Below are positions 22,796-58,442 of a stretch of DNA of 64,000 nucleotides, piece by piece. The stretch is taken from assembly GCA_012861695.1 (NCBI GenBank), contig JAAOOA010000399.1, positions 14,367,248 to 14,431,247 on the forward strand. The letters run 5' to 3'. Position 1 is the first letter of the stretch, and every line of letters begins with the position of its first letter. Position numbers and translations under genes: made by a program. The notes below the pieces were generated by a model, which was not told where the DNA came from, did no database searches, and saw only the letters and a program-made list of their open reading frames with translations. The DNA comes from Trematomus loennbergii (Eukaryota > Chordata > Actinopteri > Perciformes > Nototheniidae).

Positions 22796-23040
22796 GGTGA
22801 TAAGGTGGTAGGATGGTAGGGTTACCTTGATTGGTTATTGGATAATGGTTACACAAGCCAACAAATTGTTGTGTCATCATAAAATCTGATCAGCTCATTT
22901 TCAGACAGGTTTTTATATCAATGGATCAGGACAAAAAGTGAGCAAATATTTTTTCCTGAAACTTTCAGAATCTCTTTACACAGAGGGACACATGTTTATG
23001 TATAAAAGACAAAAAGTGGATTTTGCATAATAGGTCCCCT
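22796..23040. mobile_element. MITE-arm sequence, right arm (outer part)
   Basis: Continues 19030-19283 after the LINE and ends AGGTCCCCT + TTAA (23041-23044). Reverse complement of 17142-17385. Confidence 0.7.
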
Positions 23041-23044
23041 TTAA

Positions 23045-23875
23045 CACGCCGCTGAGCTCACAGACATCCTCACAGACATCTTCAACATCTTCCTGAGCCA
23101 GGCTGTTGTTCCCTCGTGTTTCAAGGTAGTCATGAAGCAAATCTGACCTCCCCCCTTGCTGGACCCATTTCAGTTTGCATACATGTACATTCTCAAAGAT
23201 TTTGAAGTGACTGTTATTTTGTATATATTGATTGTTGTGCTTTTATTTATGTCTTAATGTGTGCATATGTACAAATGCGTATGTTGATTGTGTTGATTGT
23301 GTGTGTGTATATATATATAGGTATATACATATTTTTAAACATATTTGTATATACCTTTGTTATTGTATTCAGGATTGTGGGAAACTGTATTTTGATCTCT
23401 CTGTCTGTAGCCTACACACAAACTGAAAGATTGACAATAAAGTTTTTTTTTTTAATTTTTTTAATTTTTTTAATTTATTGACAGGGACAGTGCACATTGA
23501 TTAACATTTCTGTAAATGCGCCAGAGTTAGCCAACAGGCTATTTTTCATCTGCAGTCCATGGACAGATGTTGAAAGTCATCCTAAAAAAAAAAATAGATG
23601 CTTATATTATGATAAAAGCATATATAAAAACATAAAAACAAAAATGCATATTCACAAAGCAGACAGATAGCAACAGGTCAAGGCACATGTGTACAAACAG
23701 AGCGTTGTAAAGTGCAGATTGTGTCAGTGTTGACAGAGCTGATTTTCCACTAACCATGTTTTTAAATTAGATTTGAATAAACTGCATGTGTTTTGTTCTC
23801 TAATCGTTACAGGGATTGAGTTCCACTGTTGTGCAGCTTTAAAAGAAATGAATATTGGCTGAATGAACTCTTCCT
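23045..23875. mobile_element. LINE RT remnant, 3' UTRs and L2-like C-terminal coding (right arm, array copy 0)
   Basis: 23045-23125 encodes [16 protein letters not shown] and QAVVPSCFK on the plus strand. 23215-23445 is a LINE 3' UTR ending in GACAATAAAG plus a T-rich tail. From about 23475 the opposite-strand L2-like 3' UTR and its C-terminal coding (23700-23995, frameshifted) follow. From GTAGCCTACACACAAACTG (about 23408) onward the sequence is the same as in array units A-E. Confidence 0.65.
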
Positions 23876-24081
23876 TAATGGAACAACGTAATCTCCTCTT
23901 GTTGCAGCTCTTGTTGACCTATAGTTATAGGTGTGCGTATGGTGATAAAATGTCTGAGCGGAGGTGAGGTAAGTTGACTTTGACTTGACTTTCAAAGCTA
24001 AAATATAGTTTGTCTAATATTAACGTCTAATATTTGAGTAAATGCGTGTTGTAAACTGTAACGTTGTTGTTGGTTATAACT

Positions 24082-24153
24082 GGGGATGTAGCTCAGTGGT
24101 AGAGCGCATGCTTTGCATGTATGAGGCCCCGGGTTCAATCCCCGGCATCTCCA
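24082..24153 (+). tRNA. tRNA-Ala (TGC), array copy 0
   Basis: A 72-nt canonical cloverleaf. The 7-bp acceptor stem pairs GGGGATG with CATCTCC, with discriminator A. The anticodon loop CTTTGCATG gives TGC, and the T-loop is GGTTCAATCC. The internal pol III promoter is intact (A box TAGCTCAGTGG, B box GGTTCAATCC) and a TTTT terminator follows a few bases downstream. Decodes alanine GCA-type codons. Confidence 0.95.
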
Positions 24154-24250
24154 CTCGTTTTGAAGTGGTTCAATCCGATGGGATTTGGTTTGGGAACCGG
24201 TACAAGTCCCAAATGCAGAACAAATCATTATCACCACAGACCTGTGACAG

Positions 24251-25519
24251 ATCGCGGATACAAGCGGCCGAGATGGGTTTTCTCCGCAGGGTGGCTGGCG
24301 TCTCCCTTAGGAATAAGGTGAGAAGTTCAGTCATCCGGGAGGGACTCGGAGTTGAACCGCCCCTCCTTCACGTCAAAAGGAGCCAGTTGAGGTGGTTCAG
24401 GCACCTACCTAGTAAGGATGCCACCTGGGCGCCTCCTGTTGGAGTAGAACACCTCTGCTACGCGCCGTTCGTTGGATGAGGCTGGATCTCTATTAAATTA
24501 AGAAAGGAATTGAAAACACCGGAATCAAAGTTATAACAAATTATCTGAGTTTCTTCTAGTAGGAAACCAAACACATATACAAGTTATACAGAGTACTCGA
24601 GCACTCCGGGCTTCAGGTTTGTGACGCGGTTTACAGGTAGACAGACCAGCCTTCAGGAAACGAGAAGTACAGACTTCAGGTTTGGGATGCGGTTTACACG
24701 TCTCTAGACCAGCGTTCAGCAAACCAGAAGCATTTTTACACTCAAAAACATCAGTATTCATATCTATTTTTGGGGCGGAGATTTCTGACTCTTCCTTCCC
24801 ATTTTCCTCCCAAGCGAATCAGAGTTCCCCTGGGGAGGAGCTGTGTAAGCTGATCACCTCCCCCAAGTGCCCTGACTGGCTGGATTCGCTTCTGGCCGAG
24901 GTCAATCAGAGTTCCGAACAGAGAGTGAGATCCTAAATTTCACCAGGTCAAAAGTCAACGTTCATCCCCACCTTATCTACACCACATTCCCCTCCCATGC
25001 GTTCTTCACCTATTTAACGATGTCTTTAACGACTTAAAAACAGCATCTGGCTTTTAGGGATGATAAGAAGCGATGTAATGTTGTCTTTAACGACCTTAAT
25101 GACGACATCTGCTTTTAGGGGTAAAACAGACAAGGTTGGTGTGTTGGAACACAGAATCTCTGGATCAGTGAGTTTGAAAGTAAGAATAACATTCCTATTC
25201 TATATATAATTACCCAAAACCGTTGTGATTACATAAAACAGTTCAAACAATACATGTTTACTTCAATACAGTGTAGAATCATATCTTTTTACTTCACTCC
25301 CTAGGGAGGGGTTCCAGGCGCGTCCAGCTGGGAAGAGACCGAGGGGTAGACCTAGGACCATGTGGAGGGATTATATCTCTTCGCTGGCCTGGGAGCGCCT
25401 TGGGATCCCCCAGTCAAAGCTGGTTGATGTGGCCAGGGAAAGGAAAGTTTGGGGCTCTCTGCTGGAACTGCTACCTCCGCGACCCGACCACGGATAAGCG
25501 GGAGAAGATGGATGGATGG
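24251..25519 (+). mobile_element. 5'-truncated RTE/Rex3-like LINE, split by a solo LTR (copy 0)
   Basis: About 405 bp of LINE 3' end (24251-24436 and 25301-25519). It encodes MGFLRRVAGVSLRNKVRSS, then GRPRTMWRDYISSLAWERLG and LLELLPPRP, and ends in a GATG repeat tail. This C-terminal tail and (GATG)n end are typical of fish RTE/Rex3 elements. It is flanked by an 11-bp duplication ACCTGTGACAG (24240-24250, 25520-25530). Promoterless and non-functional. Confidence 0.75.
24437..25296. repeat. solo LTR, 860 bp
   Basis: Begins TGTTGGAGTAGAACACCT and ends TTTTTACTTCA. It has a 4-bp duplication CTCC on both sides (24433-24436, 25297-25300). The uninterrupted site GCGCCTCCCTAGGG is present in array copies A-E, so it is a post-amplification insertion reduced to one LTR. 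Homologous to 27637-28512. Its short ORFs are not genes. Confidence 0.85.
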
Positions 25520-25578
25520 ACCTGTGACAGTGATACCTATGGAAGCCTGTTTGCGCCACAGGAAAAAAAAAAAAATCC

Positions 25579-25775
25579 TGTAAGTCAATATATTGACTTA
25601 CTATCTCAATATATTGACTTACTATCTCAATATATTGACTTAGCTATCTCAATATATTGACTTACTATCTCAATATATTGACTTGGCTATCTCAATATAT
25701 TGACTTAGCTATCTCAATATATTGACTTAGCTATCTCAATATATTGACTTAGCTATCTCAATATATTGACTTAGA
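25579..25775. repeat. palindromic satellite, unit A
   Basis: About nine units of the 21-22-bp TCAATATATTGA repeat with TACTATC, TAGCTATC and TGGCTATC linkers. Confidence 0.9.
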
Positions 25776-26135
25776 ATATAGAATAAGGCACATAGACATC
25801 AATGTTCATCATATAACCGGTATAACTTTATATTAAGGTACACAAATTAACCATCAACTAGTTGTTAATTAACATGCATATTAGCAGTATATTGGCTCTT
25901 TATTAGTCATTATAAAACACGTATTAATGCCTTATTCTACATGACTATATTTTACAAGTAATAGGCCATTAGTTGAGAGTTTTTCCTCAATAACCCTCTA
26001 ATTAGTCCTTATTTATTGCAAGTAAGGAAGTTGTTGTACATGAGCTTTGGTCTTAATATGCTCTCCTCAATATGTCTAAATAACAAAAAATTAGGTATTT
26101 CTATCTAAGAATATATTCCCTATTTTAAAGTAAAG
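25776..26135. repeat. AT-rich block, unit A
   Basis: About 360 bp found at the same place in every unit and inverted at 18013-18918. No coding potential and no family recognised. Confidence 0.75.
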
Positions 26136-27636
26136 TCTTGTTCATAACCAACAAGCTAATTTGACTCTAATTGACCTGAACAGGTTCCCTATTCTAAAGT
26201 TGCCTCCTCTTCACACTTTGTAAATACATTATAGCACAAAACTACTGAAATGAACCTCAACAGTACATGAACAAAGTAGGCTCACGTTGAAATATCTGTT
26301 TTATTAATGAAGCACGAGATAGTGCATCGGCAAGAACATGATCGGCCCCCTTTTTATGACTTATGTCAACGTTGTAGTTCTGGACAATCAATGACCAACG
26401 CATAAGGCGTTGATTGTGGTGGTACATCCTTGCAAGAAAAACCAGGGGATTGTGATCAGTGTATACCTTAATAGGTTTTACACTGGAGCCAAGATACACC
26501 TCAAAGTGCTGCAAGGCAAACAATAGAGCTAAAGCTTCTTTTTCAATCGTAGAGTACTTCAACTGATGTTTGTTAAACCTTCGGGAGTAGTAACTCACGG
26601 GTGATCGATGGCCTGTGCATCTTCTTGGAGAAGAACAGCCCCTGTCCCAACTCCACTGGCATCGAACTCGAGCTTGAATGGCTTCGAAAAGTCTGGTGCA
26701 GAAAGAACAGTAGTGCAACACAGAATACCTTTAAGGCTCTCAAATTACTGTTGACACTCACCGGACCAAACGAAAGGCTTTGAGGGACTGGTCAACGTAG
26801 TGAGCGGGGCCGCCACCGAGGAGAAGTTTCTGCAGAAACGGCGATAGTACCCTGCCATTCCTAGGAAGCGGCGAAGTTCCCTTCTGGTGGATGGCACTGG
26901 GAGGGAGGCAATTGCCCTGATCTTTGCATCATCAGGGCACACCTGCCCTCGACCAACCTGCTGACCAAGGTAGAGAACGGTACCTTTTCCAAACTCACAT
27001 TTGGCTAGGTTTAACGTTAGGGATGCGGCCGACAAGCACTTACAAACTTCTCTTAAGGTAGACATGTGGCTAGCCCAGTCATTAGAATAGAAAACAATGT
27101 CGTCCAGATATGCCTTACAGTTTGGAATATGTCCTAATACAAGATTTACAAGCCTCTGAAAGGTGGCAGGTGCGTTACATATACCGAAAGGCATCACAGT
27201 GTACTGAAGGAAGCTGTCAGGGGTCACAAAGGCTGAGATATCGGAAGCACGCTGTGTTAAAGGAACTTGCCAGCATCCCTTTAACATGTCCAGCTTACTG
27301 ACAAATTGTGCAGGACCGATTTCATCGATGCAGTCATCAATGAGCGGTAACGGGTGTGCATCGGGGACAGTGACAGCATTAACCTTGCGAAAGTCAGTGC
27401 AGAATCTGGGACTTCCATCTGACTTTGTGTCTAGCACACAAGGGGAACTCCATGAACTGGAACTAGGCCTTGCAAATCCGTTTTTAAGTAGATCCTCAAC
27501 TTCCCTTTTCATAACCTCTCTCTTAACTGGGTTAACCCTATACGCACGCTGTTTGATGGGCAAAGGGTTGGTTAAGACCACATCATGAGCTAGGACAGAA
27601 GTGTGTGAGGGAGTGTCATTAAAAAGACATGCAAAG

Positions 27637-28512
27637 TGTTGGAGCAGAACACCTATCTGGTGACTGATAGCCCCCCCTCCGCGCCGTTCGTTGAATGAGG
27701 CTGATCTCTATTTAATTAAGACAGGAATTGAAAACACTGGAATCAAAAGTTATAACAATTATCTGAGTTTACTGGTAGGGAATAGAACACGTATACAAGT
27801 TATACAGAGTACTCCGGACTTCAGGTTTGTGATGCGATGCGGATAAAGGTGTCGGGACCCGCCAACTCATCAAACAAGAAGAAATTGACTTCAGGTTTGT
27901 GATGCGATGCGGACACAGATATCGGGACCAGCCAACTCACCAAACAAGAAAGCATTTTACATACAAAAACAACAGTATTCATATTCATATTTTGGGGCGG
28001 AGATGTGTTCACTTTTCCCTTCCCCTTTTACTCCAAAGCGAATTAGAGAGTCCGTGAGGAGGAGCTGTGTGAGCTGCTCACATCCCCCAGGTGTTTTTAC
28101 TGGTTGGATTCACTTCTGGTCGGGTTCAATACAGCGAATCAGAGTTCTGACCAGAATGTGAGATTCTAAAGTTCCACAAGGTCAACGTCAATCTTATCTC
28201 TGCCCCGATATCCACTCCCTTACTTTCCCATGGGATCTTTCACATAAACTATTCTTTCTCATACAATTAAACCTTGTACACAGATATAATGATGCCCATA
28301 AAGAACCTTGAAAACAATATGTGTGTGCGCTGGTGAAAAGGAGCTGTGTGCGTATGAAACAGGATCTCTGGGTCAGTGAGTTGTAAGTGAGAATATCATT
28401 TCTATATATGTGATTACTTAAAACAGTTCAAACAATACATGTTCACTAAAATACAATTCAAAATAATAAATGTTTACTTCAATACAGTTTAGAATCATAT
28501 CTTTTTACTTCA
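27637..28512. repeat. solo LTR, 876 bp
   Basis: TGTTGGAGCAGAACACCT…TTTTTACTTCA with a 4-bp duplication AAAG (27633-27636, 28513-28516). Units B-E carry the empty site. Same family as 24437-25296. Confidence 0.85.
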
Positions 28513-29016
28513 AAAGTCAATATCAGCTTCTGTATATCACTTTCTTGGTTATCAGGGAGATGAGACAAGTAATTGGGCAAATCAGCCAATACCTCAGTAT
28601 TGCTTAGTCTTGCCCCTGTGGTGTTGCACTGCGCATCACCAACTCATCCTCATTTGAGCTCACCCTCTAAACTGAAGCCATAGGAGAGACGGTTGTCCCC
28701 ACCTGGTGAGCTTTGGAAGACTCGTTTTGGTCATCCCTGGAGCAGTACTTCTTCAGCATGTTGATATGACACACTCTGGTAGGACGTCTGCGGTCAGGTG
28801 TTTGAATGACGTAGTTTGTTTCACCGAGCTTCTTATCTACAACATAAGGACCAGAACATTTAATAGACAGAGCAGAACCAGGTACAGGCAATAGAACCAA
28901 CACCTTGTCACCTGGCTGAAACAAGCGCGCTACCGCCTTCTGGTCGTAGTGTTTCTTCATCTTCCCCTGGGTAGAGGTCAGAGCTTCCCTAGCCAAGGAG
29001 CAAGCACGATGTAGAC

Positions 29017-29418
29017 CAGGGGTGCCCAATACGTCGATTGCAATCGACCGGTCGATGGCAAGGGTAGTGTGGGTATATCGCATGGCAGTGAAAAAAAAAG
29101 AAGAACAAAAAAAAGAAAAAAACTTACTATGGCATTTGCCACTTGATTGATGTACAGGTAAGCCAGTCTGAGTTGTATTGTGCCATACGGGTTCATGCAG
29201 TTATGAGGGGCCTCACCTCCTCATCTGAAGCGCAAATGCGGCGCACTATTATACGCTTATGCGGCGCAATTAGTGTAAGCGCGCCACAGTTTATCCGTCG
29301 TTTATCCCCCCCCCCCCGCTCAAGACACAGATTGGGCAGGGGCGGCCCTGTAGGTAGATCATTTGGGCGTGGTCATTTTAATAGTAGCTCCCAAGCTGAA
29401 AAAGTGTGGGCACCCCTG
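29017..29418. mobile_element. 0.4-kb hAT MITE in integrase, unit A
   Basis: Terminal inverted repeats CAGGGGTGCCCA…GTGGGCACCCCTG, flanked by the 8-bp duplication ATGTAGAC (29009-29016, 29419-29426). It sits inside the integrase frame, between LRDRL and HRACSLAREAL. Identical position in units B-E. Confidence 0.9.
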
Positions 29419-30452
29419 ATGTAGACGATCCCTAAGTTTGGCGACATACTCCGGGATACTGCAAACTTTTTTCCTTGGCATTATCAAATGCTCTTTAAGA
29501 ACTCTTAGAGGACCTCTGACTCATGTCCAAACACTAGCTCAGCAGGACTAAAACCTAGAGACTCCTGAACAGCTTCACAGGCAGCAAATAACACTAAAGG
29601 AACACCGTCATCCCAATCTTTATGAGACTCGTGGCAATGTTTTCTTAACATGCATTGCATAGTCTGGTGAAACCTCTCTAATGCCCCTGACTTTCAGGAT
29701 GATATGGGCTGGATGTCACATGCTTGATACCTAAGGTGTCAAGTACCCGGGCAAACACTTTAGACATGAAGTTGGTACCTTGGTCTGTTTGAACTACCTT
29801 CATGGAGAAAAACTTCAGAAGTGCCTTGGTGATGACCGGGGCAGTGATTTTCCGTAGTGGGATGGCTTCTGGGAACCTAGTGGAGGCACACATGACAGTT
29901 AAGAGAAACTGGTTTCCAGTTTTAGTTTTTGGCAAGGGTCCCACACAATCACAATCACCCTATCAAATGGCTCTCCCATTACTGGAATGGGAATGAGAGG
30001 AGCAGGGTGAATCACCTGATTCGGTTTACCAGCAACTTGGCACACATGACATGTTCGACAATAAAGAACTACATCAGACTTGAGTCCTGGCCAAAATAAA
30101 TGTTTTAAAACTCTTTCATACGTTTTTGTTACCCCCATGCGACCTGACCACGGATGATCATGAGCCAAGGACATCACCTGAGAACGATAGGCTGTTGGCA
30201 CAACAACCTGATAAATTGCAAAGGAGTCTGACTCCTCACAGGCATCACTAATCCAGCGACGCATTAATAGGCCATCTTCCATAATGTAGGCCATCTTCTT
30301 TGACTTGGCCTCTTCCTGACTGATAACAGAAGAGGACATTTAGAAAGTGTTTCATCACTTAACTGGGCTGCCATGAATTCTTCCCGAGTGGCAGGCAGTT
30401 GTACAAGCTCTGAGCTGTTACTGGGTGATCCAGCACCAGCAGACCGGGTCAG

Positions 30453-31083
30453 TTTGTCTGTAGCCTACACACAAACTGAAAGATTGACAATAAAGTTTTT
30501 TTAATTTTTTAATTTATTTGACAGGGACAGTGCACATTGATTAACATTTCTGTAAATGCGCCAGAGTTAGCCAACAGGCTATTTTTCATCTGCAGTCCAT
30601 GGACAGATGTTGAAAGTCATCCTAAAAAAAAATGTCACTTCAAATGACAGGTAAATACAATCAGTAAAACAACATTCAACATAGATGCTTATATTATGAT
30701 AAAAGCATATATAAAAACATAAAAACAAAAATACATATTCACAAAGCAGACAGATAGCAACAGGTCAAGGCACATGTGTACAAACAGAGCGTTGTAAAGT
30801 GCAGATTGTGTCAGTGTTGACAGAGCTGATTTTCCACTAACCATGTTTTTAAATTAGATTTGAATAAACTGCATGTGTTTTGTTCTCTAATCGTTACAGG
30901 GATTGAGTTCCACTGTTGTACAGCTTTAAAAGAAAATGAATATTGGCTGAATGAACTCTTCCTTAATGGAACAACGTAATCTCCTCTTGTTGCAGCTCTT
31001 GTTGACCTATAGTTATAGGTGTGCGTATGGTGATAAAATGTCTGAGCGGAGGTGAGGTAAGTTGACTTTGACTTGACTTTCAA
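30453..31083 (-). mobile_element. L2-like LINE 3' end, unit A
   Basis: Minus-strand ORF 30811-31083 ends …WLVENQLCQH, an RT C-terminal tail containing WNSIPVTIRE. The 3' UTR extends left to the junction with Gmr1 at GTCAG/TTTGTCTG. The fragment is 5'-truncated. Confidence 0.75.
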
Positions 31084-31168
31084 AGCTAAAATATAGTTTG
31101 TCTAATATTAACGTCTAATATTTGAGTAAATGCGTGTTGTAAACTGTAACGTTCTTCTTGGTTTAACT

Positions 31169-31240
31169 GGGGATGTAGCTCAGTGGTAGAGCGCATGCTT
31201 TGCATGTATGAGGCCCCGGGTTCAATCCCCGGCATCTCCA
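31169..31240 (+). tRNA. tRNA-Ala (TGC), unit A
   Basis: 72 nt, identical by eye to the copy at 24082. A box, B box, TGC anticodon and downstream TTTT are present. Confidence 0.95.
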
Positions 31241-31336
31241 CTCATTTTGAAGTGGTTCAATCCATGGGATTTGGTTTGGGAACCGGTACAAGTCCCAAAT
31301 GCAGAACAAATCATTATCACCACAGACCTGTGACAG

Positions 31337-31739
31337 ATCGCGGATACAAGCGGCCGAGATGGGTTTTCTCCGCAGGGTGGCTGGCGTCTCCCTTAGGAAT
31401 AAGGTGAGAAGTTCAGTCATCCGGGAGGGACTCGGAGTTGAACCGCCCTCTGCACGTCGAAAGGAGCCAGTTGAGGTGGTTCAGGCACCTACCTAGTAAG
31501 GATGCCACCTGGGCGCCTCCCTAGGGAGGGGTTCCAGGCGCGTCCAGCTGGGAAGAGACCGAGGGGTAGACCTAGGACCATGTGGAGGGACTATATCTCT
31601 TCGCTGGCCTGGGAGCGCCTTGGGATCCCCCAGTCAAAGCTGGTTGATGTGGCCAGGGAAAGGAAAGTTTGGGGCTCTCTGCTGGAACTGCTACCTCCGC
31701 GACCCGACCACGGATAAGCGGGAGAAGATGGATGGATGG
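31337..31739 (+). mobile_element. RTE/Rex3-like 3' fragment, unit A
   Basis: About 403 bp ending in GATGGATGG. Duplications are ACCTGTGACAG (31326-31336) and ACCTGTGACTG (31740-31750, one change). The C-terminal RT tail frame is shifted once near 31447. Confidence 0.75.
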
Positions 31740-31797
31740 ACCTGTGACTGTGATACCTATGGAAGCCTGTTTGCGCCACAGGAAAAAAAAAAAATCC

Positions 31798-32060
31798 TGT
31801 AAGTCAATATATTGACTTACTATCTCAATATATTGACTTACTATCTCAATATATTGACTTAGCTATCTCAATATATTGACTTAGCTATCTCAATATATTG
31901 ACTTACTATCTCAATATATTGACTTAGCTATCTCAATATATTGACTTACTATCTCAATATTGACTTAGCTATCTCAATATGACTTATCTCAATAATTGAC
32001 TTAGCTATCTCATATATTGACTTACTAGAATATATTGACTTACTATCTCAATGACTTAGA
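31798..32060. repeat. palindromic satellite, unit B
   Basis: About twelve units, the last several decayed (ATCTCAATATGACTT, ATCTCATATATTG). Confidence 0.9.
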
Positions 32061-45563: not shown

Positions 45564-45660
45564 CTCCTTTTGAAGTGGTTCAATCCGATGGGATTTGGTT
45601 TGGGAACCGGTACAAGTCCCAAATGCAGAACAAATCATTATCACCACAGACCTGTGACAG

Positions 45661-46064: not shown

Positions 46065-46122
46065 ACCTGTGACAGTGATACCTATGGAAGCCTGTTTGCG
46101 CCACAGGAAAAAAAAAAAAATC

Positions 46123-46147
46123 CTGTAAGTCAATATATTGACTTAGA
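46123..46147. repeat. palindromic satellite, unit D (single unit)
   Basis: Only one TAAGTCAATATATTGACTTA palindrome remains, against seven to fifteen units elsewhere. Confidence 0.9.
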
Positions 46148-46504: not shown

Positions 46505-49500
46505 AAGTCTTGTTCATAACCAACAAGCTAATTTGACTCTAATTGACATGAACAGGTTCCCTATTCTAAAGTTGCCTCCTCTTCACACTTTGTAAATACA
46601 TTATAGCACACAACTACTGAAATGAACCTCAACAGTACATGAACAAAGTAGGCTCACGTTGAAATATCTGTTTTATTAATGAAGCACGAGATAGTGCATC
46701 GGCAAGAACATGATCGGCCCCCTTTTTATGACTTATGTCAAGGTTGTAGTTCTGGACAATCAATGACCAACGCATAAGGCGTTGATTGTGGTTGTACATC
46801 CTTGCAAGAAAAACCAGGGGATTGTGATCAGTGTATACCTTAATAGGTTTTACACTGGAGCCAAGATACACCTCAAAGTGCTGCAAGGCAAACAATAGAG
46901 CTAAAGCTTCTTTTTCAATCGTAGAGTACTTCAACTGATGTTTGTTAAACTTTCGGGAGTAGTAACTCACGGGGTGATGGATGGCCTGTGCATCTTCTTG
47001 TAGAAGAACAGCCCCAGTCCCAACTCCACTGGCATCGACCTCGAGCTTGAATGACTTCGAAAAGTCTGGTGCAGAAAGAACAGGAGTGCAACACAGAATA
47101 CCTTTAAGGCTCTCAAATGACTGTTGACACTCACCGGACCAAACGAAAGGCTTTGAGGGACTGGTCAGCGTAGTGAGCGGGGCCGCCACCGAGGAGAAGT
47201 TTCTGCAGAAACGGCGATAGTACCCTGCCATTCCTAGGAAGCGGCGAAGTTCCCTTCTGGTGGATGGCACTGGGAGGGAGGCAATTCCCTGATCTTTGCA
47301 TCATCAGGGCAAACCTGCCCTCGACCAACCTGCTGACCAAGGTAGAGAACGGTACCTTTTCCAAACTCACATTTGGCAAGGTATAACGTTAGGGATGCGG
47401 CCGACAAGCACTTAAAAACTTCTCTTAAGGTAGACACGTGGCTAGCCCAGTCATTAGAATAGAAAACAATGTCGTCCAGATATGCCTTACAGTTTGGAAT
47501 ATGTCCTAATACAAGATTTACAAGCCTCTGAAAGGTGGCAGGTGCGTTACACATACCGAAAGGCATCACAGTGTACTGAAGGAAGCTGTCAGGGGTCACA
47601 CGGCTGAGATATCGGAAGCACGCTGTGTTAAAGGAACTTGCCAGCATCCCTTTAACATGTCCAGCTTACTGACAAATTGTGCAGGACCGATTTCATCGAT
47701 GCAGTCATCAATGAGCGGTAACGGGTGTGCATCGGGGACAGTGACAGCATTAACCTTGCGAAAGTCAGTGCAGAATCTGGGACTTCCATCTGACTTTGTG
47801 TCTAGCACACAAGGGGAACTCCATGAACTGGAACTAGGCCTTGCAAATCCGTTTTTAAGTAGATACTCAACTTCCCTTTTCATAACCTCTCTTAACTGGG
47901 TTAACCCTATACGCACGCTGTTTGATGGGCAAAGGGTTGGTTAAGACCACATCATGAGCTAGGACAGAAGTGTGTGAGGGAGTGTCATTAAAAAGACATG
48001 CAAAGTCAAATATCAGCTTCTGTATATCACTTTCTTGGTTATCAGGGAGATGAGACAAGTAATTGGGCAAATCAGCCAATACCTCAGTATTGCTTAGTCT
48101 TGCCCCTGTGGTGTTGCACTGCGCATCACCAACTCATCCTCATTTGAGCTCACCCTCGAAACTGAAGCCATAGGAGAGACGGTTGTCCCCACCTGGTGAG
48201 CTTTGGAAGACTCGTTTTGGTCATCCCTGGAGCAGTACTTCTTCAGCATGTTGATATGACACACTCTGGTAGGACGTCTGCGGTCAGGTGTTTGAATGAC
48301 GTAGTTTGTTTCACCGAGCTTCTTATCTACAACATAAGGACCAGAACATTTAGTAGACAGAGCAGAACCAGGTACAGGCAATAGAACCAACACCTTGTCA
48401 CCTGGCTGAAATAAGCGCGCTACCGCCTTCTGGTCGTAGCGTTTCTTCATCTTCCCCTGGGTAGAGGTCAGAGCTTCCCTAGCCAAGGAGCAAGCACGAT
48501 GTAGACCAGGGGTGCCCAATACGTCGATTGCAATCGACCGGTCGATGGCAAGGGTAGTGTGGGTAGATCGCATGGCAGTGAAAAAAAAAGAAGAACAAAA
48601 AAAAGAAAAAACTTACTATGGCATTTGCCACTGATTGATGTACAGGTAAGCCAGTCTGAGTTGTATTGTGCCATACGGGTTCATGCAGTTATGAGGGGGC
48701 CTCACCTCCTCATCTGAAGCGCAAATGCTGGCGCACTATTATACGCTTATGCGGCGCATTTGTGTAAGTGCGCCACAGTTTATCCGTCGTTTAGTCTCCC
48801 CCCCCCCCGCTCAAGACACAGATTGGGCAGGGGTGGCCTTGTAGGTAGATCATTTGGGCGTGGTCATTTTAATAGTAGCTCCCAAGCTGAAAAAGTGTGG
48901 GCACCCCTGATGTAGACGATCCCTAAGTTTGGCGACATACTCCGGGATACTGCAAACTTTTTTCGTTGGCATGATCAAATGCTCTTTAAGAACTCTTAGA
49001 GGACCTCTGACCTCATGTCCAAACACTAGCTCAGCAGGACTAAAACCTAGAGACTCCTGAACAGCTTCACAGGCAGCAAATAACACTAAAGGAACACCGT
49101 CATCCCAATCTTTATGAGACTCGTGGCAATGTTTTCTTAACATGCATTGCATAGTCTGGTGAAACCTCTCTAATGCCCCCTGACTTTCAGGATGATATGG
49201 GCTGGATGTCACATGCTTGATACCTAAGGTGTCAAGTACCCGGGCAAACACTTTAGACATGAAGTTGGTACCTTGGTCTGTTTGAACTACCTTCATGGAG
49301 AAAAACTTCAGAAGTGCCTTGGTGATGACCGGGGCAGTGATTTTCCGTAGTGGGATGGCTTCTGGGAACCTAGTGGCACACATGACAGTTAAGAGAAACT
49401 GGTTTCCAGTTTTAGTTTTGGCAAGGGTCCCACACAATCCACAATCACCCTATCAAATGGCTCTCCCATTACTGGAATGGAATGAGAGGAGCAGGGTGAA

Positions 49501-49942
49501 TCACCTGATTCGGTTTACCAGCAACTTGGCACACATGACATGTTCGACAATAAATAACTACATCAGACTTGAGTCCTGGCTAAAATAAATGTTTTAAAAC
49601 TCTTTCATACGTTTTTGTTACCCCCATGCGACCTGACCACGGATGATCATGAGCCAAGGACATCACCTGAGAACGATAGGCTGTTGGCACAACAACCTGA
49701 TAAATTGCAAAGGAGTCTGACTCCTCACAGGCATCACTAATCCAGCGACGCATTAATAGGCCATCTTCCATAATGTAGGCCATCTTCTTTGACTTGGCCT
49801 CTTCCTGACTGATAACAGAAGAGAGACATTTAGAAAGTGTTTCATCACTTAACTGGGCTGCCATGAATTCTTCCCGAGTGGCAGGCAGTTGTACAAGCTC
49901 TGAGCTGTTACTGGGTGATCCAGCACCAGCAGACCGGGTCAG
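46505..49942 (-). pseudogene. Gmr1-like pol fragment, unit D
   Basis: Integrase 49580-49864 and 48918-49437, tail 48094-48498, RT 47234-48079 in three overlapping frames, RNase H 46629-47270 (213 codons with LEVDASGVGTGAVL and YTDHNPLVFL). Frameshifts lie at about 47287, 47600, 47890 and 49410. Confidence 0.85.
48507..48909. mobile_element. hAT MITE in integrase, unit D
   Basis: 403 bp, ATGTAGAC duplications at 48499-48506 and 48910-48917. Confidence 0.9.
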
Positions 49943-50562
49943 TTTGTCTGTAGCCTACACACAAACTGAAAGATTGACAATAACGTTTTTATTTTTTATT
50001 TGACAGGGACAGTGCACATTGATTAACATTTCTGTAAATGCGCCAGAGTTAGCCAACAGGCTATTTTTCATCTGCAGTCCATGGACAGATGTTGAAAGTC
50101 ATCCTAAAAAAAAAATGTCACTTCAAATGACAGGTAAATACAATCAGTAAAACAACATTCAACATAGATGCTTATATTATGATAAAAGCATATATAAAAA
50201 CATAAAAACAAAAATACATATTCACAAAGCAGACAGATAGCAACAGGTCAAGGCACATGTGTACAAACAGAGCGTTGTAAAGTGCAGATTGTGTCAGTGT
50301 TGACAGAGCTGATTTTCCACTAACCATGTTTTTAAATTAGATTTGAATAAACTGCATGTGTTTTGTTCTCTAATCGTTACAGGGATTGAATTCCACTGTT
50401 GCACAGCTTTAAAAGAAAATGAATATTGGCTGAATGAACTCTTAATGGAACAACGTAATCTCCTCTTGTTGCAGCTCTTGTTGACCTATAATTATAGGTG
50501 TGCGTATGGTGATAAAATGTCTGAGCGGAGGTGAGGTAAGTTGACTTTGACTTGACTTTCAA
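49943..50562 (-). mobile_element. L2-like LINE 3' end, unit D
   Basis: The C-terminal tail frame is broken by a small deletion near 50442 (TTCC lost), leaving the 61-codon ORF 50377-50562. Confidence 0.75.
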
Positions 50563-50648
50563 AGCTAAAATATAGTTTGTCTAATATTAACGTCTAATAT
50601 TTGAGTAAATGCGTGTTGTAAACTGTAACGTTCTTCTTGGTTATAACT

Positions 50649-50720
50649 GGGGATGTAGCTCAGTGGTAGAGCGCATGCTTTGCATGTATGAGGCCCCGGG
50701 TTCAATCCCCGGCATCTCCA
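50649..50720 (+). tRNA. tRNA-Ala (TGC), unit D
   Basis: 72 nt, intact, as the other copies. Confidence 0.95.
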
Positions 50721-50817
50721 CTCCTTTTGAAGTGGTTCAATCCGATGGGATTTGGTTTGGGAACCGGTACAAGTCCCAAATGCAGAACAAATCATTATCA
50801 CCACAGACCTGTGACAG

Positions 50818-51222
50818 ATCGCGGATACAAGCGGCCGAGATGGGTTTTCTCCGCAGGGTGGCTGGCGTCTCCCTTAGGAATAAGGTGAGAAGTTCAGTCA
50901 TCCGGGAGGGACTCGGAGTTGAACCGCCCCTCCTGCACGTCGAAAGGAGCCAGTTGAGGTGGTTCAGGCACCTACCTAGTAAGGATGCCACCTGGGCGCC
51001 TCCCTAGGGAGGGGTTCCAGGCGCGTCCAGCTGGGAAGAGACCGAGGGGTAGACCTAGGACCATGTGGAGGGACTATATCTCTTCGCTGGCCTGGGAGCG
51101 CCTTGGGATCCCCCAGTCAAAGCTGGTTGATGTGGCCAGGGAAAGGAAAGTTTGGGGCTCTCTGCTGGAACTGCTACCTCCGCGACCCGACCACGGATAA
51201 GCGGGAGAAGATGGATGGATGG
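50818..51222 (+). mobile_element. RTE/Rex3-like 3' fragment, unit D
   Basis: 405 bp, duplications ACCTGTGACAG (50807-50817, 51223-51233), GATGGATGG tail. The C-terminal RT frame is intact from 50985 to 51200 (GRPRTMWRDYISSLAW). Confidence 0.75.
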
Positions 51223-51285
51223 ACCTGTGACAGTGATACCTATGGAAGCCTGTTTGCGCCACCGGAAAAAAAAAAAATCCTGTAA

Positions 51286-51603
51286 GTCAATATATTGACT
51301 TACTATCTCAATATATTCACTTACTATCTCAATATATTGACTTACTATCTCAATATATTGACTTAGCTATCTCAATATATTGACTTACTATCTCAATATA
51401 TTGACTTAGCTATCTCAATATATTGACTTACTATCTCAATATATTGACTTGGCTATCTCAATATATTGACTTACTATCTCAATATATTGACTTACTATCT
51501 CAATATATTGACTTGGCTATCTCAATATATTGACTTCCTATCTCAATAGATTGACTTCCTATCTCAATATATTGACTTGGCTATCTCAATATATTGACTT
51601 AGA
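51286..51603. repeat. palindromic satellite, unit E first block
   Basis: About fifteen units, the longest block in the window. Confidence 0.9.
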
Positions 51604-51995
51604 ATATAGAATAAGGCACATAGACATCAATGTTCATCATATAACCGGTACAACTTTATATTAAGTTACACAAATTAACCATCAACTAGTTGTTAATTAA
51701 CATGCATATTAGCAGTATATTGGCTCTTTATTAGCCATTATAAAACACTTATTAATGCCTTATTCTACATGACTATATTCTACAAGTAATAGGCCATTAG
51801 TTGAGAGTTTTTCCTTGGGATCCCCCAGTCAAAGCTGATTGATGTGTCCAGGGAAAGGAAAGTTTGGGGCTCTCTGCTGGAACTGCTACCTCCGTGACCC
51901 GACCACGGATAAGCGGGAGAAGATGGATGTATGGACCTGTGACAGTGATACCTATGGAAGCCTGTTTGCGCCACAGGAAAAAAAAAAAATCCTGT

Positions 51996-52144
51996 AAGTC
52001 AATATATTGACTTACTATCTCAATATATTGACTTAGCTATCTCAATATATTGACTTACTATCTCAATATATTGACTTAGCTATCTCAATATATTGACTTA
52101 CTATCTCAATATATTGACTTAGCTATCTCAATATATTGACTTAG
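51996..52144. repeat. palindromic satellite, unit E second block
   Basis: About seven units, arising from the partial duplication. Confidence 0.9.
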
Positions 52145-52500
52145 AATATAGAATAAGGCACATAGACATCAATGTTCATCATATAACCGGTACAACTTTA
52201 TATTAAGGTACACAAATTAACCATCAACTAGTTGTTAATTAACATGCATATTAGCAGTATATTGGCTCTTTATTAGTCATTATAAAACACGTATTAATGC
52301 CTTATTCTACATGACTATATTCTACAAGTAATAGGCCATTAGTTGAGAGTTTTTCCTCAATAACCCTCTAATTAGTCCTTATTTATTGCAAGTAAGGAAG
52401 TTGTTGTACATGAGCTTTGGTCTTAATATGCTCTCCTCAATATGTCTAAATAACAAAATTGGTATTTCTATCTAAGAATATATTCCCTATTTTAAAGTAA
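52145..52500. repeat. AT-rich block, unit E
   Basis: Near-copy of 25776-26135. An incomplete copy precedes it at 51604-51813. Confidence 0.75.
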
Positions 52501-52623
52501 AGTCTTGTTCATAACCAACAAGCTAATTTGACTCTAATTGACCTGAACAGGTTCCCTATTCTAAAGTTGCCTCCTCTTCACACTTTGTAAATACATTATA
52601 GCACACAACTACTGAAATGAACC

Positions 52624-53946
52624 TCAACAGTACATGAACAAAGTAGGCTCACGTTGAAATATCTGTTTTATTAATGAAGCACGAGATAGTGCATCGGCAA
52701 GAACATGATCGGCCCCCTTTTTATGACTTATGTCAAGGTTGTAGTTCTGGACAATCAATGACCAACGCATAAGGCGTTGATTGTGGTTGTACATCCTTGC
52801 AAGAAAAACCAGGGGATTGTGATCAGTGTATACCTTAATAGGTTTTACACTGGAGCCAAGATACACCTCAAAGTGCTGCAAGGCAAACAATAGAGCTAAA
52901 GCTTCTTTTTCAATCGTAGAGTACTTCAACTGATGTTTGTTAAACTTTCGGGAGTAGTAACTCACGGGGTGATCAATGGCCTGTGCATCTTCTTGTAGAA
53001 GAACAGCCCCAGTCCCAACTCCACTGGCATCGACCTCGAGCTTGAATGGCTTCGAAAAGTCTGGTGCAGAAAGAACAGGAGTGCAACACAGAATACCTTT
53101 AAGGCTCTCAAATGACTGTTGACAGTCACCAGACCAAACGAAAGGCTTTGAGGGACTGGTCAACGTAGTGAGCGGGGCCGCCACCGAGGAGAAGTTTCTG
53201 CAGAAACTGCGATAGTACCCTGCCATTCCTAGGAAGCGGCGAAGTTCCCTTCTGGTGATGCACTGGGAGGGAGGCAATTCCCCTGATCTTGCATCATCAG
53301 GGCAAACCTGCCCTCGACCAACCTGCTGACCAAGGTAGAGAACGGTACCTTTTCCAAACTCACATTTGGCAAGGTATATCGTTAGGGATGCGGCCGACAA
53401 GCACTTAAAAACTTCTCTTAAGGTAGACACGTGGCTAGCCCAGTCATTAGAATAGAAAACAATGTCGTCCAGATATGCCTTACAGTTTGGAATATGTCCT
53501 AATACAAGATTTACAAGCCTCTGAAAGGTGGCAGGTGCGTTACATATACCGAAAGGCATCACAGTGTACTGAAGGAAGCTGTCAGGGGTCACACAGGCTG
53601 AGATATCGGAAGCACGCTGTGTTAAAGGAACTTGCCAGCATCCCTTTAACATGTCCAGCTTACTGACAAATTGTGCAGGACCGATTTCATCGATGCAGTC
53701 ATCAATGAGCGGTAACGGGTGTGCATCGGGGACAGTGACAGCATTAACCTTGCGAAAGTCAGTGCAGAATCTGGGACTTCCATCTGACTTTGTGTCTAGC
53801 ACACAAGGGGAACTCCATGAACTGGAACTAGGCCTTGCAAATCCGTTTTTAAGTAGATACTCAACTTCCCTTTTCATAACCTCTCTCTTAACTGGGTTAA
53901 CCCTATACGCACGCTGTTTGATGGGCAAAGGGTTGGTTAAGACCAC
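52624..53946 (-). pseudogene. Gmr1-like reverse transcriptase-RNase H (440 codons)
   Basis: Continuous from an internal Met to the stop. RT palm: first catalytic Asp in SKLDMLKGCW (D98), then PFGICNAPATFQ and YLDD (158-161), followed by the thumb/connection (RRFLGMAGYYR). RNase H: LEVDASGVGTGAVLLQ, the TIEKEALALLFAL glutamate and VYTDHNPLVFL. It copies element RNA into DNA in the virus-like particle. A small compensated frame disturbance lies around 53262-53300 (PDDARSGELPPSQCITRRELRR against the PDDAKIRAIASLPVPSTRRELRR of other copies). Confidence 0.85.
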
Positions 53947-54502
53947 ATCATGAGCTAGGACAGAAGTGTGTGAGGGAGTGTCATTAAAAAGACATGCAAA
54001 GTCAAATATCAGCTTCTGGATATCACTTTCTTGGTTATCAGGAGATGAGACAAGTAATTGGGCAAATCAGCCGATACCTCAGTATTGCTTAGTCTTGCCC
54101 CCTGTGGTGTTGCACTGCGCATCACCAACTCATCCTCATTTGAGCTCACCCTCGAAACTGAAGCCATAGGAGAGACGGTTGTCCCCACCTGGTGAGCTTT
54201 GGAAGACTCGTTTTGGTCATCCCTGGAGCAGTACTTCTTCAGCATGTTGATATGACACACTCTGGTAGGACGTCTGCGGTCAGGTGTTTGAATGACGTAG
54301 TTTGTTTCACCGAGCTTCTTATCTACAACATAAGGACCAGAACATTTAGTAGACAGAGCAGAACCAGGTACAGGCAATAGAACCAACACCTTGTCACCTG
54401 GCTGAAACAAGCGCGCTACCGCCTTCTGGTCGTAGCGTTTCTTCATCTTCCCCTGTGTAGAGGTCAGAGCTTCCCTAGCCAAGAAGCAAGCACGATGTAG
54501 AC

Positions 54503-54904
54503 CAGGGGTGCCCAATACGTCGATTGCAATCGACCGGTCGATGGCAAGGGTAGTGTGGGTAGATCGCATGGCAGTGAAAAAAAAGAAGAACAAAAAAAGA
54601 AAAAAACTTACTATGGCATTTGCCACTTGATTGATGTACAGGTAAGCCAGTCTGAGTTGTATTGTGCCATACGGGTTCATGCAGTTATGAGGGGGCCTCA
54701 CCTCCTCATCTGAAGCGCAAATGCGGCGCACTATTATACGCTTATGCGGCGCAATTAGTGTAAGCGCGCCACAGTTTATCCGTCGTTTAGTCCCCCCCCC
54801 CCCGCTCAAGACACAGATTGGGCAGGGGCGGCCCTGTAGGTAGATCATTTGGGCGTGGTCATTTTAATAGTAGCTCCCAAGCTGAAAAAGTGTGGGCACC
54901 CCTG
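54503..54904. mobile_element. hAT MITE in integrase, unit E
   Basis: 402 bp, ATGTAGAC duplications at 54495-54502 and 54905-54912. The 279-codon ORF 54009-54848 reads through it by chance. Confidence 0.9.
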
Positions 54905-55863
54905 ATGTAGACGATCCCTAAGTTTGGCGACATACTCCGGGATACTGCAAACTTTTTCGTTGGCATGATCAAATGCTCTTTAAGAACTCTTAGAGGACCT
55001 CTGACCTCATGTCCAAACACTAGCTCAGCAGGACTAAAACCTAGAGACTCCTGAACAGCTTCACAGGCAGCAAATAACACTAAAGGAACACCGTCATCCC
55101 AATCTTTATGAGACTCGTGGCAATGTTTTCTTAACATGCATTGCATAGTCTGGTGAAACCTCTCTAATGCCCCCTGACTTTCAGGATGATATGGGCTGGA
55201 TGTCACATGCTTGATACCTAAGGTGTCAAGTACCCGGGCAAACACTTTAGACATGAAGTTGGTACCTTGGTCTGTTTGAACTACCTTCATGGAGAAAAAC
55301 TTCAGAAGTGCCTTGGTGATGACCGGGGCAGTGATTTTCCGTAGTGGGATGGCTTCTGGGAACCTAGTGGAGGCACACATGACAGTTAAGAGAAACTGGT
55401 TTCCAGTTTTAGTTTTTGGCAAGGGTCCCACACAATCCACAATCACCCTATCAAATGGCTCTCCCATTACTGGAATGGGAATGAGAGGAGCAGGGTGAAT
55501 CACCTGATTCGGTTTACCAGCAACTTGGCACACATGACATGTTCGACAATAAATAACTACATCAGACTTGAGTCCTGGCCAAAATAAATGTTTTAAAACT
55601 CTTTCATACGTTTTTGTTACCCCCATGCGACCTGACCACGGATGATCATGAGCCAAGGACATCACCTGAGAACGATAGGCTGTTGGCACAACAACCTGAT
55701 AAATTGCAAAGGAGTCTGACTCCTCACAGGCATCACTAATCCAGCGACGCATTAATAGGCCATCTTCCATAATGTAGGCCATCTTCTTTGACTTGGCCTC
55801 TTCCTGACTGATAACAGAAGAGAGACATTTAGAAAGTGTTTCATCACTTAACTGGGCTGCCAT
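54859..55863 (-). pseudogene. Gmr1-like integrase (N-terminal and catalytic part)
   Basis: 334 codons. The zinc-binding N-terminal region is at residues ~71-113 (AHDHPWSGRMGV … TCHVCQ): Cys109 and Cys112 are present, but the second His of the usual GH-x-G is Arg79. The catalytic triad is Asp143 (VDCVGP), Asp198 (TDQGTNF) and Glu234 (ALERFH), with 35 residues between the last two, as in DD35E integrases. The frame is cut by the hAT MITE, after which the GPY/F-like tail resumes (54009-54494). Confidence 0.85.
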
Positions 55864-55938
55864 GAATTCTTCCCGAGTGGCAGGCAGTACAAGCTCTGAG
55901 CTGTTACTGGGTGATCCAGCACCAGCAGACCGGGTCAG

Positions 55939-56562
55939 TTTGTCTGTAGCCTACACACAAACTGAAAGATTGACAATAACGTTTTTTTTTTTTTATTTGA
56001 CAGGGACAGTGCACATTGATTAACATTTCTGTAAATGCGCCAGAGTTAGCCAACAGGCTATTTTTCATCTGCAGTCCATGGACAGATGTTGAAAGTCATC
56101 CTAAAAAAAAATGTCACTTCAAATGACAGGTAAATACAATCAGTAAAACAACATTCAACATAGATGCTTATATTATGATAAAAGCATATATAAAAACATA
56201 AAAACAAAAATACATATTCACAAAGCAGACAGATAGCAACAGGTCAAGGCACATGTGTACAAACAGAGCGTTGTAAAGTGCAGATTGTGTCAGTGTTGAC
56301 AGAGCTGATTTTCCACTAACTATGTTTTTAAATTAGATTTGAATAAACTGCATGTGTTTTGTTCTCTAATCGTTACAGGGATTGAGTTCCACTGTTGCAC
56401 AGCTTTAAAAGAAAATGAATATTGGCTGAATGAACTCTTCCTTAATGGAACAACGTAATCTCCTCTTGTTGCAGCTCTTGTTGACCTATAGTTATAGGTG
56501 TGCGTATGGTGATACAATGTCTGAGCGGAGGTGAGGTAAGTTGACTTTGACTTGACTTTCAA
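55939..56562 (-). mobile_element. L2-like LINE 3' end, unit E
   Basis: Minus ORF 56320-56562 is the RT C-terminal tail, cut ten codons early because CCATG is CTATG here. Confidence 0.75.
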
Positions 56563-56648
56563 AGCTAAAATATAGTTTGTCTAATATTAACGTCTAATAT
56601 TTGAGTAAATGCGTGTTGTAAACTGTAACGTTCTTCTTGGTTATAACT

Positions 56649-56720
56649 GGGGATGTAGCTCAGTGGTAGAGCGCATGCTTTGCATGTATGAGGCCCCGGG
56701 TTCAATCCCCGGCATCTCCA
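56649..56720 (+). tRNA. tRNA-Ala (TGC), unit E
   Basis: 72 nt, intact, as the other copies. Confidence 0.95.
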
Positions 56721-56817
56721 CTCATTTTGAAGTGGTTCAATCCGATGGGATTTGGTTTGGGAACCGGTACAAGTCCCAAATGCAGAACAAATCATTATCA
56801 CCACAGACCTGTGACAG

Positions 56818-57222
56818 ATCGCGGATACAAGCGGCCGAGATGGGTTTTCTCCGCAGGGTGGCTGGCGTCTCCCTTAGGAATAAGGTGAGAAGTTCAGTCA
56901 TCCGGGAGGGACTCGGAGTTGAACCGCCCCTCCTGCACGTCGAAAGGAGCCAGTTGAGGTGGTTCAGGCACCTACCTAGTAAGGATGCCACCTGGGCGCC
57001 TCCCTAGGGAGGGGTTCCAGGCGCGTCCAGCTGGGAAGAGACCGAGGGGTAGACCTAGGACCATGTGGAGGGACTATATCTCTTCGCTGGCCTGGGAGCG
57101 CCTTGGGATCCCCCAGTCAAAGCTGGTTGATGTGTCCAGGGAAAGGAAAGTTTGGGGCTCTCTGCTGGAACTGCTACCTCCGCGACCCGACCACGGATAA
57201 GCGGGAGAAGATGGATGGATGG
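56818..57222 (+). mobile_element. RTE/Rex3-like 3' fragment, unit E
   Basis: 405 bp with duplications ACCTGTGACAG (56807-56817, 57223-57233). Confidence 0.75.
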
Positions 57223-57282
57223 ACCTGTGACAGTGATACTATGGAAGCCTGTTTGCGCCACAGGAAAAAAAAAAAATCCTGT

Positions 57283-57513
57283 AAGTCAATATATTGACTT
57301 ACTATCTCAAATATTCACTTACTATCTCAATATATTGACTTACTATCTCAATATATTGACTTGGCTATCTCAATATATTGACTTACTATCTCAATATATT
57401 GACTTAGCTATCTCAATATATTGACTTACTATCTCAATATATTGACTTAGCTATCTCAATATATTGACTTACTATCTCAATATATTGATTTAGCTATCTC
57501 AATATATTGACTT
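57283..57513. repeat. palindromic satellite, unit F
   Basis: About eleven units of the TCAATATATTGA repeat. Confidence 0.9.
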
Positions 57514-57874
57514 AGAATATAGAATAAGGCACATAGACATCAATGTTCATCATATAACCGGTACAACTTTATATTAAGGTACACAAATTAACCATCAACT
57601 AGTTGTTAATTAACATGCATATTAGCAGTATATTGGCTCTTTATTAGTCATTATAAAACACGTATTAATGCCTTATTCTACATGACTATATTCTACAAGT
57701 AATAGGCCATTAGTTGAGAGTTTTTCCTCAATAACCCTCTAATTAGTCCTTATTTATTGCAAGTAAGGAAGTTGTTGTACATGAGCTTTGGTCTTAATAT
57801 GCTCTCCTCAATATGTCTAAATAACTAAAAATTAGGTATTTCTATCTAAGAATATATTCCCTATTTTAAAGTAA
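57514..57874. repeat. AT-rich block, unit F
   Basis: Near-copy of 25776-26135. Confidence 0.75.
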
Positions 57875-58442
57875 AGTCTTGTTCATAACCAACAAGCTAA
57901 TTTGACTCTAATTGACCTGAACAGGTTCCCTATTCTAAAGTTGCCTCCTCTTCACACTTTGTAAATACATTATAGCACAAAACTACTGAAATGAACCTCA
58001 ACAGTACATGAACAAAGTAGGCTCACGTTGAAATATCTGTTTTATTAATGAAGCACGAGATAGTGCATCGGCAAGAACATGATCGGCCCCCTTTTTATGA
58101 CTTATGTCAAGGTTGTAGTTCTGGACAATCAATGACCAACGCATAAGGCGTTGATTGTGGTTGTACATCCTTGCAAGAAAAACCAGGGGATTGTGATCAG
58201 TGTATACCTTAATAGGTTTTACACTGGAGCCAAGATACACCTCAAAGTGCTGCAAGGCAAACAATAGAGCTAAAGCTTCTTTTTCAATCGTAGAGTACTT
58301 CAACTGATGTTTGTTAAACTTTCGGGAGTAGTAACTCACAGGGTGATCGATGGCCTGTGCATCTTCTTGTAGAAGAACAGCCCCTGTCCCAACTCCACTG
58401 GCATCGACCTCGAGCTTGAATGGCTTCAAAAAGTCTGGTGCA
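57875..58442 (-). pseudogene. Gmr1-like RNase H fragment, unit F (array end)
   Basis: RNase H only (57998-58429, EVDASGVGTGAVLLQ to the stop). Homology stops at GTCTGGTGCAG (58442), inside the RT-RNase H junction, and marks the right edge of the array. Confidence 0.85.

Follow-up and report, generated by a model that had tools for sequence, protein, structure and literature searches.

How does a tRNA gene come to be multiplied inside what is otherwise transposon debris, and how much of the order of events can still be read? The question is raised by a 64,000-base stretch of the genome of the fish Trematomus loennbergii (the window; contig JAAOOA010000399.1, positions 14,367,248 to 14,431,247), in which tRNA-Ala(TGC) genes recur within a tandem array of repeat fragments. 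The reading that we favor, with a probability of roughly 0.83, is that a unit of about 5.3 kb was recently amplified in tandem to form a six-unit array, within a local cluster of tRNA-Ala(TGC) genes that is older than the array. The array itself, its shared and private insertions, the single joint that links its units, the native flank of its first unit, four inverted tRNA copies outside it, and empty or uninterrupted sites for the RTE fragment, the miniature inverted-repeat transposable element (MITE), and both ends of the Gmr1-like piece are all present in the assembled DNA. The source is a single assembly, from whose sequence the array is read. Coordinates are window positions, R denotes a position in a reference unit opened at 28513, and the wider locus is the 184 kb around the window.

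Self-BLAST, mapping to the reference unit, and the joints between repeats place the array at 23402-58443 on the plus strand, with all repeats head-to-tail. Five plus-strand units are complete (A, 23402-30454; B, 30455-35850; C, 35851-44777; D, 44778-49944; E, 49945-55940), and a sixth, F (55941-58443, plus strand), is truncated at R4472. Unit size without private inserts is about 5.2-5.4 kb, in line with the 5.3 kb of a first-pass annotation of this DNA, and the self-comparison and unit alignment which that annotation had proposed as a check gave the head-to-tail array with substitution distances of 0.58-1.27% between units; one example pair, 46130-51514 against 52128-57513, is 98.7% identical over 5403 aligned positions. 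With head-to-tail units of several kilobases, one tRNA gene in each, and this degree of identity between units, the array has the makeup of a tRNA-bearing large tandem repeat. The unit phase was set by the native left flank of unit A, a MITE and a fragment of a long interspersed nuclear element (LINE) at 22791-23401 (plus strand), whose place is taken in units B-F by the Gmr1-like fragment. This flank recurs in inverted form left of the window and, inside it, at 17054-17383 and 16356-16532, and the inverted partial copy left of the array continues as unit A's flank does. The five complete units that had been counted from position 22796 stand, as does one of two claimed partial units; the claimed start lies in the native flank, the array proper beginning at 23402, and in the phase of unit A the second partial unit drops out as a unit of its own, the candidates for it being the inverted arm to the left and the internal duplication of unit E.

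Along the plus strand a unit consists of a LINE tail, a dispersed LINE end on the minus strand, the tRNA gene, an RTE fragment, a 22-bp satellite, an AT-rich block, and a minus-strand Gmr1-like pol fragment with an hAT MITE in its integrase part. In unit B these are the LINE end at 30507-31061 (minus), the tRNA gene at 31169-31240, the RTE fragment at 31337-31739 (plus), the satellite tract at 31804-32052 (plus; from Tandem Repeats Finder and tract measurement), the AT-rich block at 32053-32597 (plus), and the Gmr1-like fragment at 32598-35844 (minus), which encodes integrase, reverse transcriptase, and RNase H and has no long terminal repeat (LTR). The order of events is read from what the units share and what they do not. 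The hAT MITE, at 29017-29418 (plus) in unit A between 8-bp duplications at 29009-29016 and 29419-29426, occupies the same site in units B-E, and its duplication ATGTAGAC flanks both sides in all five units that contain the site. The RTE fragment, a putative name that is the earlier annotation's label only, sits in unit B between target duplications at 31326-31336 and 31740-31750; its duplication ACCTGTGACAG is found on the left side in 6/6 units and exactly on the right side in five of them, unit B reading ACCTGTGACTG with one base different, so the claim of identical duplications in every complete copy holds for the MITE and the left side of the RTE fragment and misses by that base on the right.

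Other changes are private, as had been claimed for most of them, and the inserts among them have their own target duplications. Unit A carries two solo LTRs, at 24437-25296 (duplication CTCC) and at 27637-28512 (AAAG), the second matching the first at 71.7% identity where the two align; both also hold a 63- or 70-bp repeat about twice (24611-24730 and 27817-27950). Unit C carries an hAT element with a zf-BED domain at 39304-40127 (minus; TTGCTTAG) and a BEL-like element with a DUF5641 domain at 41110-43908 (minus; CAGGC), unit E has R3106-3760 twice in an internal duplication (51101-52357, plus), unit D has lost nearly all of its satellite, and unit A has a 48-base deletion. These shared and private sites support the earlier proposal on timing, in which amplification of the nested unit followed the insertion of the hAT MITE and of the RTE fragment and preceded the private insertions. 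The two LTR matches of the BEL-like element (41109-41692 and 43325-43909) are 98.3% identical, a divergence of the same order as that between units, which fits insertion after the amplification and is not a date. The distance tree of units A-E is star-like, with terminal branches of 0.42-0.59 and internal branches of 0.05 and 0.17, long tips and short inner branches as might be left after a burst, and at one site beside the joint units A and B agree with the inverted outgroup against C-F, which suggests growth away from unit A. The distance analysis leaves out 30 columns beside the BEL-like insertion; one block of unit C had seemed unusually rich in private changes (21), but 16 of these lay in the alignment edge at that insertion, and the excess was set aside.

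All six units carry a tRNA-Ala(TGC) gene on the plus strand (A, 24082-24153; B, given above; C, 36569-36638; D, 45492-45563; E, 50649-50720; F, 56649-56720), and the claim of one such gene in every unit stands with two amendments, in that the count is six rather than five and that the copy of unit C is broken. Five are identical and were called both by ARAGORN and by Rfam RF00005 (70.1 bits); the sixth, in unit C, has two 1-base deletions, scores 47.3 bits with RF00005, and was not called by ARAGORN. The five have a cloverleaf, the anticodon TGC, box A, box B, and a T run that starts four bases past the gene, together with a G3:U70 pair (read by eye), and the first bases 3' of the gene vary between units. 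Because one of the six is broken, the usable copies in the array would number five at most. No insertion lies inside any of the six genes. An origin as a short interspersed nuclear element (SINE) or a retro-copy was rejected, there being no encoded CCA 3' of the gene and the tRNA with its flank occurring in one locus only; among the best 40 of 43 candidates the other matches span about the tRNA alone, rather than a tRNA head with a dispersed body.

The neighboring LINE end is likewise not what carried the tRNA. It is present in all six units, as had been noted, and it is a dispersed repeat found outside the locus in at least 33 places of 382 bases or more (among the best 40 of 6263 candidates), and it stops 107 bp before the tRNA and is separate from it. 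In the two copies opened elsewhere (L007 and L008), which set its boundaries, the match is confined to the LINE end, and ARAGORN found no tRNA in either.

The joints between units are more telling about how the array formed. A single non-homologous joint recurs at all five internal boundaries, with adjoining bases identical in 5/5, including six bases between the Gmr1-like fragment and the LINE tail (30449-30454, plus strand, at the joint of A and B). Outside the array the Gmr1-like element gave at least 27 matches over query 1-449 at 94-97% identity and nine shorter ones (best 40 of 53 candidates), and all 27 stop at query 449, six bases short of the LINE sequence of the array. Past this point the dispersed element continues with one common, different sequence in four of five opened loci, the fifth lying on the other strand and not read, and the hAT MITE is absent from all four dispersed copies that cover its site. 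At the other end, the AT-rich block is cut at R4085 by its joint to the Gmr1-like fragment, while three independent copies left of the window (-62220 to -61612, -54735 to -54287, and -38590 to -38377) run natively past R4085 with a common sequence that the array lacks (3/3). Because the dispersed Gmr1-like copies and the outside copies of the AT-rich block run on past both ends, the pol piece is bounded by two non-homologous joints, one of them where the units meet. A microhomology, TGTCTG, was suspected at the unit joint and proved unsupported given the dispersed Gmr1-like copies. The description of the unit as a composite transposon does not survive these comparisons: its joints, at R1936-1942 and R4085, truncate other elements, no target duplication exists at the level of the unit, and the Gmr1-like piece represents only a truncated part of an element that is dispersed in the genome.

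The label Gmr1-like itself fits. In unit E, three minus-strand frames searched separately against Pfam gave the integrase zinc finger and core, the integrase C-terminus, and then reverse transcriptase with RNase H, and integrase precedes reverse transcriptase in 10/10 relatives, which were picked from 120 listed because an integrase core was listed for them. Since the ten relatives share this order and three dispersed copies of the same genome (L044, L045, and L047) are contiguous across R5398/R1, where the reference unit was opened, the order is native and not a by-product of tandem duplication. Integrase upstream of reverse transcriptase is also the likeness to the Gmr1 clade of Ty3/gypsy elements, as the consulted part of PMC8220671 presents it, the difference being that the unit holds just a 3.2-kb truncated pol fragment without LTRs. 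The best named relatives of the pol piece are from Pseudochaenichthys georgianus (P0063, 93% over 48%; P0077, 87% over 67%). The element is common in the genome (L043-L047 are examples, and the 27 matches are a lower bound).

The array is set in an older cluster of the same tRNA. A 268-base segment of the tRNA and its flank was found in at least ten places of the 1.21-Gb assembly (best 40 of 43 candidates), all within 128 kb of one another (C399, 14311494-14439322), and four of the ten are inverted and lie outside the array; the further copies that the earlier annotation had proposed to search for thus exist and are all in one locus. ARAGORN calls each of the four as tRNA-Ala(TGC): G (-55680), I (-51199), and J (71917) match the array tRNA at 73/73 bases, and H (-51714) has one change. 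Their flanks are 82-98% identical to the array over varying lengths. Copy J is an empty RTE site, in which ACCTGTGACAG occurs once, uninterrupted, and is followed by TGATA and then by a LINE fragment; H has the RTE fragment without the dispersed LINE end, I has the LINE end, and G has neither in place. J runs into LINE sequence, and LINE sequence also lies in the 515 bp that separate H from I, which makes tRNA-LINE-tRNA with short spacers the probable older arrangement. The unit's integrase, reverse transcriptase, RNase H, and MITE had no match outside the array in the 184 kb at the cut-off used. Since these four copies have their own flanks outside the array, the tRNA appears to have been multicopy before the array was amplified, and the ordered history of a multiplied tRNA gene that had been proposed is correct in its shared-then-private order and starts too late.

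An older inverted partial copy lies within the window, left of the array (8662-17745, minus strand), as segments 8662-8893 and 16052-16355 and then LINE and MITE sequence to 17745, split by an LTR element. An inverted AT-rich block with satellite lies upstream of unit A (18044-19054, minus) and is split by a MITE; it is 84-97% alike over 302, 181, and 129 positions, with a possible TA duplication, and its interior is lost in the array. Because the inverted copies left of the array are about 2-6% from the units in the pieces compared, they are either older than the array or exempt from its homogenization.

On the favored reading, an old tRNA cluster with short LINE-fragment spacers would have gained the dispersed LINE end, the RTE fragment, the satellite and AT-rich element, and the Gmr1-like piece; a one-off end-joining or template-switching event would have made the joint of Gmr1-like and LINE sequence; unequal exchange or a replication-based burst would have produced six units; and later insertions would have struck single units, the tRNA genes being carried along as passengers. 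The tRNA genes and the palindromes of the satellite may both fit instability at this locus, and tRNA genes are tied to fork pausing and rearrangement in the portion of PMC2888827 available to us. By eye, every 22-bp satellite unit includes a palindrome of 16 bp, AGTCAATATATTGACT, and the tracts measured range from 16 bp in unit D to 315 bp in unit E, that of unit C being 144 bp by Tandem Repeats Finder.

The alternative that survives best departs from this sequence of events at the capture of the pol piece. The tandem may have existed already, the Gmr1-like piece having been taken up as filler DNA into a spacer of the older cluster, between two tRNA units, and unequal exchange having then spread that spacer. 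The outside copies do show the older order that this presupposes (H and I at 515 bp, J followed by a LINE fragment), and the piece is cut at both ends by joints, but a single tandem duplication whose right end lay inside a Gmr1-like element explains the joint and the flank of unit A in fewer events, and we regard filler capture as a serious possibility that falls short of an even chance. A related and equally tentative thought is that the locus has been caught in conversion from a short-spacer tRNA cluster to a long-period macrosatellite, in which old tRNA-LINE units would have been loaded stepwise with transposons, a captured Gmr1-like piece would have become the spacer of the multiplied 5.3-kb unit, and the tRNA would have been kept by selection or conversion.

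Several points count against a simple recent amplification or blur its order. The right end of the array is cut at R4472, and the original right flank of the joint is not visible. The 21 sites shared by subsets of units conflict (DE eight, AD three, AB two, BC two, and six others once, AC, AE, and CF among them), and inter-unit exchange or repeated change thus blurs the order. Indels are frequent, with 44 events against 121 variable columns, 16 of them in homopolymers and 30 of 44 being of a single base, and some may be sequencing errors, the deletions in the unit C tRNA included. To the left, some 28.5 kb from the array, the assembly is interrupted by a gap of 100 N (window coordinate -5154), so that scaffolding is what orders the array relative to the three outside copies on that side. 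Within the array there is, finally, no signal of selection on the tRNA, as 0 variable columns in 73 would be expected with P about 0.14, and the comparison of tRNA with flank across the cluster treats the copies as independent and ignores their relatedness. In that comparison, eight tRNA copies including outside ones vary in 1/72 columns against 26/138 flank columns (P = 8e-5), or, without copy G, in 1/72 against 20/145 (P = 0.0016); the columns were trimmed, replacing an untrimmed version (P between 6e-11 and 7e-7) that had included non-homologous edge columns. The test does not distinguish selection from conversion; because the tRNA is nearly invariant over the older cluster while its flanks vary, at least some copies have probably been kept working by one or the other.

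This near-invariance, and the intact state of five of the six array copies with their promoter boxes and T run, are also what could be said for the view that selection for extra tRNA-Ala(TGC) copies drove the amplification. We consider such dosage selection improbable. One array copy is broken, the same 72-nt tRNA occurs exactly at four other fetched places, and another contig holds a dense, conventional tRNA cluster (L033; C116:14953000-14962999), in which 38 genes were called within 10 kb, most of them for Ala, some for Glu, and a single one for Arg. Two contigs (L035 and L036) agree exactly in this tRNA and in the 40 bases to each side of it, and may be two haplotypes of one place or a duplication.

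That one or two units were expanded by long-read misassembly is very unlikely. The single-base indels and the gap described above leave some room for it, but the 64,000-base window is free of N, the private insertions that set units apart each come with a target duplication, and units A-E have 16-23 private substitutions each over about 4600 compared sites (the count for unit C after 16 edge columns beside the BEL-like insertion were dropped). Least probable of all is that the unit is itself mobile, as a composite, foldback, or SINE-like element, and moved whole with the tRNA inside it: satellite and AT-rich block do bracket the core of unit A in opposite orientations, and at the old site, TGATA|TCTCTG, the outer ends of the satellite/AT element point to long inverted repeats and a duplicated TA, but all ten places of tRNA and flank are in one locus, the joints are truncations without a unit-level duplication, and the tRNA lacks both an encoded CCA and a dispersed body.

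The surroundings of the array have features of their own. The LTR element that splits the older inverted copy (8892-16051) has identical 491-bp LTRs and a probable 5-bp duplication, CTTTG, contains no stop-to-stop frame of at least 120 amino acids, and looks like a recent non-autonomous insertion. The flank upstream of unit A also holds an inserted minus-strand LINE (19289-22790) that encodes a reverse transcriptase domain, ends in an AAATC-type repeat, and probably has a duplication, ATTCA. A MITE with a probable TTAA duplication has several copies in the 184-kb locus, at 18344-18830, at 58737-59025 near the right end of the array, and to the left and right of the window. An 18-bp satellite, AACACACACATCACATGG, fills 11-6750 and continues left to about -19208 with the 100-N gap inside it, with further blocks at -32832 to -28273 and -27586 to -26425. 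To the right of the array, inspection by eye shows a pair of exon-like stretches (about 60341-61060) that are bordered by splice-like sequence, the second closing with a stop, and that may be where a host gene ends.

Local duplication is the prime suspect behind clusters of tRNA genes in teleosts and other eukaryotes, and behind the quick shifts of tRNA gene numbers in fish, according to the sections of PMC2888827 at hand. Fish clusters are common and often tandem (PMC2888827; PMC11417395, each in its consulted part), and neighboring tRNA genes in zebrafish are nearly all parallel (PMC11417395, same part). The present genome holds a dense cluster of that type (L033), and the array departs from it in its spacing of 5-9 kb, which results from the transposon load; by the distance of less than 1000 nt that the survey in PMC2888827 counts as clustered, in its consulted part, only the pair H and I (515 bp) qualifies. 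The locus shares with the Dada-tA transposons an association of transposons with fish tRNA-Ala genes, but Dada inserts inside the gene (PMC3706591, in the part consulted), and 0/6 array tRNAs carry an insertion. The locus opens no new question of mechanism. The tRNA arrays of Entamoeba are a genome-wide organization. They resemble the fish array in having tRNA genes in tandem units (from the consulted part of PMC2888827), whereas the fish case is one small local array of transposon debris.

The closest case is the human variable-number tandem repeat of tRNA genes at 1q23.3 (PMC4041453, as its consulted part describes it), which likewise has a tandem tRNA-bearing unit of several kilobases, about 98% identity between units, a fragment of an LTR retroelement in each unit, and LTR elements at its edges. 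The human unit is 7.3 kb long and GC-rich, holds several tRNA genes, binds CTCF, and is present in 9-43 copies per allele (PMC4041453, same part), whereas the fish array has one tRNA per unit and six units in one assembly and is not GC-rich overall. No report of this locus was found among the papers listed in literature searches, judged by titles and the openings of abstracts, with subscription journals thinly covered. The locus is therefore not a new kind of system but a well-resolved example of the known tRNA-bearing tandem repeats with an unusually readable history, in which the order of events can be followed through its empty sites, the target duplications that units have in common, and the one joint that they all share, and it illustrates that the copy count of a tRNA gene can rise as the passenger of a transposon-rich amplification.

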